NCBI RefSeq assembly: GCF_041821085.1
Contig: NZ_JBGUAZ010000003.1
Location: forward strand, 558,001 to 622,000
Origin: Natrinema sp. HArc-T2
GTDB lineage: Archaea > Halobacteriota > Halobacteria > Halobacteriales > Natrialbaceae
Direction: 5' to 3'
Length of the DNA: 64,000 nt
Shown piece after piece: positions 49,617 through 53,499 of the stretch; position 1 is the first letter of the stretch, and every line of letters begins with the position of its first letter. A program made the translations under genes and the position numbers. The notes beneath the pieces were generated by a model, which saw only the letters and a program-made list of their open reading frames with translations, had not been told where the DNA came from and searched no databases.

Positions 49617-49684
49617 CCGCGCATATGCTGCATAACGGCCTTTCATCGCCTTTACTGGCCTTTGAGCGTCTCATGGACAGCGAA

Positions 49685-49708
49685 TATAGCTCCTATACAG
49701 CTGCTATA
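49685..49708. promoter_or_regulatory. Inverted repeat upstream of the ribbon-helix-helix gene
   Basis: TATAGC (49685-49690) and GCTATA (49703-49708) form an inverted repeat with a 12-nt spacer, in an AT-rich stretch 60 nt before the ribbon-helix-helix gene. RHH proteins bind such short paired sites, so this may be its autoregulatory operator. Confidence 0.35.
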
Positions 49709-49767
49709 GTTGCTGCGGTTCACACAATCCATAATACCTATACTTCGCCTCTCGATGGTGGATAATA

Positions 49768-49911
49768 GTGAGTGACCGCAAGACGACGATACGGGTTGCA
49801 GAAAGTACGAAGGAGCGTCTGAAAGAACGAGGAGAGATGGGAAACGACGACGCGCTCACCCACGTGCTTGACCGGCTCGAAAAACTCGAACACGAAGTCG
49901 ACGATGAGTAA
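49768..49911 (+). CDS. Ribbon-helix-helix-like mini-protein
   Basis: A 47-residue protein with a GTG start, too short for usual gene lists. KTTIRVAESTKERLKERGEM gives a strand followed by a helix, and DALTHVLDRLEKLEHEV a second helix, the ribbon-helix-helix plan of Arc/CopG DNA-binding proteins. A TATA-like cctatac centred about 28 nt upstream fits a leaderless start. Its last 8 nt overlap the start of the DNA methylase gene, so it may control or be coupled to the R-M genes. Function is inferred. Confidence 0.7.
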   Translation: MSDRKTTIRVAESTKERLKERGEMGNDDALTHVLDRLEKLEHEVDDE

Positions 49912-52057
49912 CGAAATGCGGGAGTTCGAGGATATTGCCCCTACCTCGGCGCTCGAGACGGGCATCCCGTTCCAAAAGATCAATCGGCTTGCTGAACTCG
50001 AGGCCTACAACAAACACCACTATCGCCCGACCAACTACCAGCACAAGTGGTGGGCGCGCAGACTCGGGAGCGTTTTCCGCACGTTGAACATCGCCGCGCT
50101 CAGTAGTCCAAGCACTACTGCCGACGAAATCTGGGAGAACGTAACCGACACCTGTAACTTCGAAGACGCTGTCGTGTTTGACCCCTTTATGGGCGGTGGG
50201 ACGACCGGTCAAGAAGCAACACGCGTCGGTGCGAAATTCGTTGGATCCGACCTGAACCCCGTAGCTTGGTTCATCACGCGAATGGGGCTCGCACCACAAA
50301 CGAGTCTGCTGGAAACGTACTTCCGCCAGGTGATGAATCGCTCTCGCGACGAAATCCGCCCGTACTATCGTACTCGCTGCCCGTCGTGTGGCGACGACGC
50401 CGGCGCACAGTTTTACCTCTGGGTACGTCTCGTCACCGACGGCGAACAGACAGTGCGAAAGTACGATACGCTGGTTGTCGATCACGACCGGAACGGCGGC
50501 GCCACGGTTGTCTGTCCGGAGTGTCACGGACTCAGTGAAGTCGACGATCCTGCCAACGCAGTTTGCGGGGAGTGCGAGCACTCGTTCGATGCCACCCGAG
50601 AAGACGTCCATGTCCCTGTTGATACTCCGAGCGTGGTGTTCAACGGCGGTGAGCGTCCGGCATACGAACCATACGCGGTGAAATATCACTGCAAAGACTG
50701 TGAAGAGAGTGCGTTCCGGACGTTCGGAGAATACGACATCGAACGCCTCAAAGCAGCTCGAGAGCGCTTTCGGGAGCGAGCGGAGTCACTGCCGCTTCCC
50801 GACCAGAAGATACCGGAAGGCGGTGAGAAGACTCGTGACCTGCACAACCGGAATTACACCGAATGGACGCAGCTGTTCAACGCTCGGCAACTGCTCGCGC
50901 TCGGAACGCTCCTCACCAACATCAAAGACGTTGATGACGACCTTTCCCGGCACTACCTCACGCTGACGTTCTCTGCGACGCTCGAGTTCAACAACATGTT
51001 CTGCTCCTACAAAGGTGCAGATCCGCGTGGACCGGGTGCGGTTCGGCACATCTTTAGCCACCATGCGTATGTCCATCCCGGTGAGCCGCTCGAGAACAAC
51101 CCGCTCGGAACGAAAGGGCGACAGAGCGGAACGTTCCGGTATCTCTACGAGTATCGTCTGAAGAAGGCCCTCGACTACCAGCACAATCCCATCGAACGTG
51201 TATTGAACGACGATGGGACGGTAAAAGAGAAGAAGTCCATCAGCGGGGAGCAGATCGGTGGACGGCCAGCTGATTCTGTCTCGGAACTACTGGAGGGGGA
51301 TAAGACTCACTACCTCAATTGTGGCGATAGCGCCGCTCTCCCATTCGTAGACGAACTCTCCGGTGAAGTTGATGCGGTCATTACCGATCCACCGTACTAC
51401 GACTCGGTTCAGTACAGTGAGCTTGCCGATTTCTTCTACGTCTGGCAGAAGCAGAGTCTTGAGCAAGACTTCCCGGAGATTTTCTCACGCGACTCTGTCG
51501 TGTCCGACGCGGAAGCAGTCGGGAATCGGACACGTGAGAAGTCACTTGACGATTACCGACGACTCCTCCAGAACGTCTTCGAGTCCTCGTTCGACGTGCT
51601 GAAAGCGGATGGCCCGCTTGCATTTACGTTCCACCACAAACAGCCCAAAGCCTGGGGCGCTGTTCTCGAAGCGATTGACGGGGCAGGGTTCCGCGTCGTG
51701 ACGACGTATCCTGTTCGTGGTGAGAATCGCCTTAGCGTACATATCAAAGGGCAGCGAGCCGTGCTGCTCGATAGCGTGATTGTGTGTCGCAAAGACCACA
51801 AGAAACCGGAGGGCGACTGGAGTGAAATCTACAATACAATCGAGGCGGTGACGCGTGACCGTATTCGGACGTTCCACGAGTCTGATGACGACGACCTCTC
51901 CCGGTTGGACGCCTCTGTCGTGGCGTACGGTACCTGCATGACTGAATACTCGAAATACGAGAGCATCACTGACGACGATGGCGACGAGGTGAGCGAGCGT
52001 GATGCGATGGCGAACATCCAACCACTGATTGACGAACTCAACGACGAAGCGTTCTAA
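49904..52057 (+). CDS. DNA methyltransferase with zinc ribbons (COG1743-like)
   Basis: A 717-residue site-specific amino-methyltransferase (adenine-N6 or cytosine-N4 type). The SAM motif FDPFMGGGTTGQEA and GSDLNP lie near residues 85-115, and catalytic DPPYYDSVQY near residue 490. Between them are cysteine pairs (CPSCGDD, CPECHGLS, CGECEHSF, CKDCEES) forming zinc ribbons. N-terminal YNKHHYRPTNYQHKWWARR is typical of this group. Codon use is less G+C-biased than in neighbours. It overlaps an RHH gene and faces a convergent NotI-like nuclease gene, its likely restriction partner. Confidence 0.88.
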   Translation: MSNEMREFEDIAPTSALETGIPFQKINRLAELEAYNKHHYRPTNYQHKWWARRLGSVFRTLNIAALSSPSTTADEIWENVTDTCNFEDAVVFDPFMGGGTTGQEATRVGAKFVGSDLNPVAWFITRMGLAPQTSLLETYFRQVMNRSRDEIRPYYRTRCPSCGDDAGAQFYLWVRLVTDGEQTVRKYDTLVVDHDRNGGATVVCPECHGLSEVDDPANAVCGECEHSFDATREDVHVPVDTPSVVFNGGERPAYEPYAVKYHCKDCEESAFRTFGEYDIERLKAARERFRERAESLPLPDQKIPEGGEKTRDLHNRNYTEWTQLFNARQLLALGTLLTNIKDVDDDLSRHYLTLTFSATLEFNNMFCSYKGADPRGPGAVRHIFSHHAYVHPGEPLENNPLGTKGRQSGTFRYLYEYRLKKALDYQHNPIERVLNDDGTVKEKKSISGEQIGGRPADSVSELLEGDKTHYLNCGDSAALPFVDELSGEVDAVITDPPYYDSVQYSELADFFYVWQKQSLEQDFPEIFSRDSVVSDAEAVGNRTREKSLDDYRRLLQNVFESSFDVLKADGPLAFTFHHKQPKAWGAVLEAIDGAGFRVVTTYPVRGENRLSVHIKGQRAVLLDSVIVCRKDHKKPEGDWSEIYNTIEAVTRDRIRTFHESDDDDLSRLDASVVAYGTCMTEYSKYESITDDDGDEVSERDAMANIQPLIDELNDEAF

Positions 52058-52205
52058 CGCCGCTTCAACTCTTATACCGAACACCAGTCAGTACAGACTC
52101 GAGCGCATCTCAACGGCGTCACCGCTGGTGCCAGCGTCTCGAGTCCGACCGCGGTCTGGCCCGTGTTGGCCGACACTCTTACTCGGCGCTGTCGAACACG
52201 AGTTC

Positions 52206-53078
52206 CTAACGGCGTTCACGGGAAAGACGGTCTTCGAGGCTGTTCGCGAACTCCTCGAGCGCCGGTGCCTTCGACGCACCGATGGCCGCTTCCATCGCCT
52301 CGTACGTCGTTGGGAATATCTGGTTCAGCTCCAATCGGTACTGCGGGGTGTCCTCGACGTAGTCGTACACGAACCAGTAGAACGTGGCTTCGTCTTCCGG
52401 GACGCGGTCGATGCGCTGTACGAACTGTGAATTCTCGAACGCAATCGTCTGTACAATCGCCCCGAGAGGCTTGCCCCACGCTTCGGTGACCTCGATTTTC
52501 TCCTCGATCTGCGGGAGGAGGCGCTTGTCGATACAGCTGCGGTAATCCATCTGCCGGGCGTCTTTTGGAGGGAGTGGCGGTTTTCCCTCGTTAATATCGT
52601 CCATGTACTCATTGAACTCGGGACGAATGCTGTCCCCTGAGAAGTATGAGGATTGGATTTCTATCGCTGCGAAGTCCTTGATGTCACCATCGTCGTGCAC
52701 GACGGGGATGAGATCGACACGACCCGTGTTTCCAAGGCTCCGTTCTTCCAGCACGTGGAAGGAGTACTCCGTGTTGGGGAAGAGATAATCTTTCAGGTCC
52801 TGGTAGACCTTCGTCGATTTGAATCGGTCAGGACAGGTGATGACGGCGTGTCCGTCCGGCGATGATGCACTGCAGACGCCGAGTGGTCGTGTCATTCCGT
52901 GTTCGTCGTCTTTGCTCGTCGACTTCGTACAGCCGTACCCCAGGTATTCACAGGGACTCGACCAGATGTCACTGCCAGATTTCGTTTCTAGTACGCGCTC
53001 GTACCGGTCATCGACCCGTTCTTCGGAATGATAGGTATAGGCCTCGCGGAATAAGGGAGAATCCTGACTATCTGCCAT
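52206..53078 (-). CDS. NotI-family-like restriction endonuclease, probable
   Basis: A 290-residue protein. Four cysteines in SPCEYLGYGC, GVCSAS and ITCPDRF resemble the metal-binding cysteine cluster of NotI-type enzymes. A PD-(D/E)xK-like core is seen as GRVDLIPVVHDDGDIKDFAA (Asp) then IEIQSSYF, giving the D...ExQ variant described for NotI (from memory). The frame is open far upstream, but MADSQDSPLF is chosen since preceding codons look non-coding. It is convergent with the methylase gene, 148 bp apart. The recognition site is unknown. Confidence 0.75.
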   Translation of the reverse strand: MADSQDSPLFREAYTYHSEERVDDRYERVLETKSGSDIWSSPCEYLGYGCTKSTSKDDEHGMTRPLGVCSASSPDGHAVITCPDRFKSTKVYQDLKDYLFPNTEYSFHVLEERSLGNTGRVDLIPVVHDDGDIKDFAAIEIQSSYFSGDSIRPEFNEYMDDINEGKPPLPPKDARQMDYRSCIDKRLLPQIEEKIEVTEAWGKPLGAIVQTIAFENSQFVQRIDRVPEDEATFYWFVYDYVEDTPQYRLELNQIFPTTYEAMEAAIGASKAPALEEFANSLEDRLSRERR

Positions 53079-53207
53079 AGCATACCCTACTATGGACGGC
53101 CCATAAATCCCAACGAGTTGATGGCTTGCCGGCGTCGAGAGAACCTTCGCATTTCGATTCGAGGAACGCTGCCGCACGAGAGTACCAACAGAAACGAGTG
53201 ACACACT

Positions 53208-53230
53208 GATCGCACAACTATCGTGCGATC
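53208..53230. promoter_or_regulatory. Perfect inverted repeat before the PIN remnant
   Basis: GATCGCAC and GTGCGATC (8-bp arms, 7-nt loop) end 8 nt before the ATG of the small PIN-like gene. It could be an operator of a former toxin-antitoxin unit or a simple hairpin. Confidence 0.45.
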
Positions 53231-53238
53231 GGCTGTGC

Positions 53239-53499
53239 ATGACGTTCTTGGTGGTCGCCTCCCGCGAGGAACGTGATACCGACCGCGTCGTTTCGAACGC
53301 CGCCAACCTCGTCGCGGTACGCGGTAACGTGGAGACGGTCGTTACGGTGGCGACATATGTGGAAGACCACGGGTGCGCACCGTTCGACGCACTTCACCTC
53401 GTTGAGTCGAATGGAGAGACCATCGACTCAAGCGACGAGACGTACGAGGACGTCACATCATGTTTGGACCTGAAGACGGTCGACGAGCACGAGGAGTGA
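53239..53499 (+). pseudogene. C-terminal remnant of a PIN-domain (VapC-like) protein
   Basis: An 86-residue frame whose second half, YVEDHGCAPFDALHLVESNG then TIDSSDETYEDV, matches the end of haloarchaeal PIN-domain nucleases (usual pattern PFDAFH...SSD). The N-terminal part with the first catalytic aspartate (usually MxxLDTN) is absent, and upstream codons in the same frame show no PIN-like start, so it appears truncated. No antitoxin gene is seen beside it. It lies between the R-M island and rfcL. Confidence 0.5.

Follow-up and report, generated by a model that had tools for sequence, protein, structure and literature searches.

A stretch at positions 49626..53245 of the window (the whole 64,000 nucleotides of DNA analysed here) is best explained as a recently acquired type II restriction-modification (R-M) system, and we consider this reading very probable. 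It holds a NotI-family nuclease, which would cut unmodified CGGCCG, and a short COG1743-type methylase, which would modify a cytosine of CGGCCG in the host DNA and in this way protect the host. The modification is most likely N4-methylcytosine, since CGGCCG contains no adenine and the enzyme is an amino-methyltransferase. While the nuclease family is known, its partner and its host are unusual, and a site can be predicted for it. It is difficult to recognise a restriction enzyme and seldom possible to predict its site from sequence. In this case, carrier genomes were compared blindly with their kin, and the one hexamer that emerged also forms the core of the site known for the NotI family; hence, the two-gene island becomes a precise and cheap prediction.

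The two enzymes

The nuclease gene (52206..53078, minus strand) encodes 290 amino acids, counted from the ATG at position 53078, and was assigned on the basis of PF12183, invariant residues, a PDB profile match and the predicted fold. The match to the Pfam NotI family (PF12183) reaches an E-value of 4.5e-22 and 79 bits (curated cut-off 22). In an alignment of nine homologues, four cysteines (C43, C50, C69 and C82) are invariant, as is a core of E112, D122 and E140-x-Q142, i.e., a PD-(D/E)xK arrangement with Q for K (ExQ); this bears out the Cys cluster and the D...ExQ core that the earlier note had read into an endonuclease convergent to the methylase. Searched against the PDB, a profile of these homologues hits NotI at 3.7e-4 and aligns the Cys module. 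The structures of NotI (PDB 3bvq and 3c25) were reportedly described by Lambert et al. in 2008. An AlphaFold2 model of the nuclease (28 sequences, mean pLDDT 74, first 40 residues poor) superimposes on 3c25 with a Z-score of 16.1 over 257 residues (rmsd 4.0), the second-best family reaching 9.2, so that the structural comparison proposed earlier returned NotI as the best match. Judged by profile, residues and predicted fold, the nuclease is a NotI-family enzyme. It has the PF12183 family, the Cys4 module, the ExQ active site and the modelled fold in common with NotI, but differs in its length (290 versus 383 amino acids) and shows 16% identity in the structural alignment. In NotI, Q likewise takes the place of K, and the Cys4 site binds iron (PMC4081073).

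The methylase gene (49904..52057, plus strand) encodes 717 amino acids and, according to motifs, Pfam and tree, a short COG1743-type DNA amino-methyltransferase with zinc knuckles, which is the predicted CGGCCG modifier. It matches N6_N4_Mtase (PF01555) at 6.6e-13, with motif I (DPFMGGGTT) at residues 93–101 and DPPYY at residues 495–499. Between these motifs, eight cysteines in CxxC pairs form the zinc knuckles, which are kept in the sole close relative; the description as a COG1743-type zinc-ribbon methylase, thus, holds. Partial matches to the HmaB, DUF1156_antiphage and PglX profiles could place the methylase in a larger Hma-, BREX- or DISARM-like defence system, with the nuclease as a bystander. 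This is very improbable, given that the methylase scores 142 bits against a DUF1156/HmaB cut-off of 1000, is more than 200 residues shorter than these profiles, and has neither Hma-type partners nor a helicase or ATPase gene adjoining it, while a related short methylase adjoins a HaeII-type restriction enzyme. In that locus (L143, in G392 C69), the short COG1743-type methylase directly follows the HaeII-type endonuclease (Pfam 1.3e-118), which indicates that methylases of this family work with type II nucleases of several unrelated kinds.

The pair and its predicted site in Halobacteria

The methylase and nuclease genes are convergent, with about 150 bp between them. Of the 391 Halobacteria genomes searched, only two gave a strong NotI match—G000, the haloarchaeon with the pair of the window, and G223, a member of a different family. 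The one close relative of the methylase in this set is likewise in G223 (73% identical; the next is 36%). The G223 pair is also convergent, with about 72% (methylase) and 64% (nuclease) identity over full length, and its flanks, a histidine kinase and a permease region, are unrelated to those in G000. Methylase and nuclease are, thus, adjacent and co-inherited in both strong carriers, as in a type II R-M system, so that the proposal of a likely R-M pair is upheld, also with regard to its distribution in other archaea. A second, divergent haloarchaeal NotI-family group (L003, L004 and L005) is convergent with a beta-class N6_N4 methylase; a weak NotI match (L006) was dropped because it overlaps a TrkA-like gene. 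A two-gene system of this kind is rare in archaea. When archaeal R-M systems were surveyed, the type II nucleases captured by sequence fell into only three groups, without a NotI-type group among them (PMC10609329), and NotI is not mentioned in a survey of haloarchaeal R-M systems (PMC6471742).

The recognition site was approached indirectly, through site depletion, and blindly, with no site assumed. Hexamers were scanned in 464 kb of G000 and 400 kb of G223, and the scans were backed by whole-genome pattern counts, for which the reversed hexamer GCCGGC served as control. In the G000 sample, CGGCCG occurs 226 times versus 466 expected, the largest deficit among the 64 six-base palindromes, and it also shows the strongest palindrome deficit for both carriers combined. 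Of 1115 hexamers compared with kin, it is the most depleted in each carrier separately (z -11.8 in G000, -9.8 in G223), with observed/expected values of 0.30 versus 0.73 in kin (G000) and 0.43 versus 0.84 in kin (G223). Over whole genomes, the CGGCCG/GCCGGC ratio is 0.39 in G000 (1541/3931) and 0.57 in G223 (3116/5501), compared to 1.11–1.56 in 25 same-genus kin of G000 and 1.04–1.70 in ten other genomes of the G223 genus from the class sample. When genomes with fewer than 1000 control sites are left out, the two carriers have the lowest ratios of the 391 Halobacteria; among the small-count genomes, six (G014, G021, G218, G313, G316 and G382) have ratios of 0.05–0.44 without the pair. In the three genomes of the divergent group (L003–L005), CGGCCG is not depleted, and this group apparently reads another site.

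EagI recognises CGGCCG, which also forms the core of the NotI site. The nuclease might be an isoschizomer of NotI and cut the octamer GCGGCCGC, as its family and a predicted NotI fold that covers almost the entire chain would allow. We regard this as highly unlikely, because every flank context of CGGCCG is depleted alike: GCGGCCGC makes up 21 of 226 sites in G000 and 85 of 783 in kin, and the octamer is not below its Markov expectation. The predicted site, therefore, has six and not eight bases, in contrast to that of NotI, and the long, G+C-rich and rare site that the earlier note had expected gives way to the common 6-bp CGGCCG in any flank.

Alternatively, the pair could be a genuine R-M system with another site, and the loss of CGGCCG could stem from an m5C methylase with subsequent deamination or from another R-M system. 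Many Halobacteria possess a Dcm-like m5C family that has CGGCCG among its predicted sites (PMC6471742), and no depletion is seen in G391 (CGGCCG/GCCGGC 13741/3595), a Chloroflexota genome in which a NotI-type nuclease lies next to a same-clade methylase, from which it follows that the methylase clade may read more than one site. Although the m5C family is widespread, the strongest depletion among genomes with enough control sites is that of the two carriers. Moreover, no C-to-T deamination product of CGGCCG is enriched in G000 and G223 alike, an argument against m5C deamination as the cause, and the hexamer coincides with the EagI site and the NotI-site core. This alternative is, thus, unlikely, albeit the least so of those considered, and we favour the convergent pair as the probable cause of the depletion, with CGGCCG as the putative common site of both enzymes.

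In Chloroflexota, carriers of NotI-type nucleases show a median CGGCCG ratio of 0.40 versus 0.76 (p 0.005, G391 left out), a trend that is only suggestive because the baseline is wide. As a separate observation from this phylum, CGGCCG is extremely depleted in G443, G452, G461 and G501 (L149, L151, L152 and L154; e.g., 27 versus 5815 control sites), which carry a COG1743-type methylase of another clade; G434, G445 and G541 are equally poor in CGGCCG without that methylase.

Relatives and possible exchange of partners

A single-protein scan of genome contigs gave no close relative, and phage records gave no relative of the nuclease. A profile scan of the contigs yielded 488 bacterial relatives, of which 80 were kept; most of these 80 NotI-type loci adjoin a D12-type methylase, a few a C5 methylase, and one a COG1743-type enzyme. 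Bacterial NotI-family R-M systems, such as those of Thermus brockianus and of Sedimenticola and Aeromonas plasmids, resemble the island in the nuclease family and the adjacent methylase, but differ in that the methylases are of the D12 type or C5 and the nucleases are about 27–33% identical to ours. EagI, which we take to be a relative of NotI, is linked to the nuclease described here by the identical predicted site CGGCCG. M.EagI has been treated as a C5 methylase (PMC4722110), whereas the partner in the island is an amino-methyltransferase.

In the methylase tree, the enzyme, its G223 orthologue and five Chloroflexota proteins form one clade (100/99). Two of these five adjoin NotI-family nucleases, one found via the nuclease (L075) and one via the methylase (L172); these pairs differ from the haloarchaeal ones in being tandem rather than convergent and in that their nucleases come from other NotI lineages. 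None of the other 21 tree rows has a NotI-type nuclease in the surrounding sequence examined, and L164, L174 and L175, of the same clade, hold no NotI remnant. Relatives of the methylase on Tabrizicola and Acidiphilium plasmids are not adjoined by a NotI-type nuclease, and no relative was found in the viral contigs scanned. L080 was rejected as a further NotI-COG1743 pairing, as it is a lone nuclease at a contig edge and, elsewhere in its genome, a HaeII-type enzyme is the partner of the COG1743-type methylase.

Taken with the predicted site, these neighbourhoods tip the balance, if slightly, towards a COG1743 methylase subfamily that makes N4-methylcytosine in CGGCCG and has been recruited more than once by NotI-type nucleases, which would swap partners across four or more methylase classes (D12, C5, beta-class amino and COG1743). 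Should the methylase indeed make N4-methylcytosine, the label “adenine-specific” attached to the widespread COG1743 family would need revision.

Acquisition of the island and its accessory features

The island of about 3.6 kb was delimited by comparing the window with eight loci of the same genus (blastn) and is flanked by a lipoprotein gene and the gene for the replication factor C large subunit (rfcL). In the nearest kin, G387, the window positions 49625 and 53246 are only 580 bp apart (blastn), and this 580-bp stretch together with the next gene encodes an AbrB-type antitoxin and a PIN toxin. The toxin gene is intact in kin (Pfam PIN, 4.3e-8), whereas in the window, as the comparison with kin shows, a remnant is left (53239..53499, plus strand), an open reading frame of 86 amino acids corresponding to the last two thirds of the toxin (approximately residues 40–126 of 126). 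Hence, a toxin-antitoxin module was broken where the island now lies. The empty site in kin supports horizontal acquisition of the island, as had been suspected, initially from codon use. The lower G+C bias itself stands, with GC3 values of 0.67 (methylase) and 0.69 (nuclease) compared to 0.82–0.85 in rfcL, CBS, ABC1 and bioF, and a GC content of the island of 56% versus 63–65% in its surroundings; however, GC3 alone is no proof of transfer, because the adjoining native lipoprotein gene also has a value of 0.68.

The broken toxin gene at the right edge could be taken to mean that the system, while intact in sequence, is silent or inactive today. This is quite improbable, considering that all catalytic and metal-site residues are kept, that 64% (nuclease) and 72% (methylase) identity to the sister pair is retained, and that the depletion of CGGCCG is genome-wide, which implies long exposure to the nuclease. 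An R-M system that is probably active is, thus, the preferred reading.

At the right junction, a repeat of about 65 bp with the palindromic core CTGATCGCAC...GTGCGATCGG (53175..53245, plus strand) was recognised by blastn against plasmids and comparison of the copies. Copies with 81–88% identity are found in unannotated stretches of many haloarchaeal plasmids, and the junction of the island coincides with the end of the repeat, which is possibly the end of a mobile element. In L192 (5285–5346), L194, L198 and L199, a second copy of the rfc start region (~60–75 bp) precedes the AbrB-PIN cassette, and the cassette in these kin looks as if it had been inserted with target duplication.

Upstream of the methylase, an open frame with a GTG start (49768..49911, plus strand) encodes a DUF7557-like ribbon-helix-helix (RHH) protein of 47 amino acids and overlaps the methylase start by 8 bp. 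Because of this overlap, a role of the RHH protein in methylase regulation is possible in G000. Of the regulator put forward in the earlier note, the open frame is confirmed, but its match to the haloarchaeal Pfam family DUF7557 (0.048) falls below the cut-off and the G223 locus has no RHH counterpart upstream; the RHH gene is not part of the conserved pair. Two inverted repeats, TATAGC-N12-GCTATA upstream of the RHH gene (49680–49760) and CCATAG-N9-CTATGG at the start of the nuclease gene (53060–53110), are possible candidate operators.
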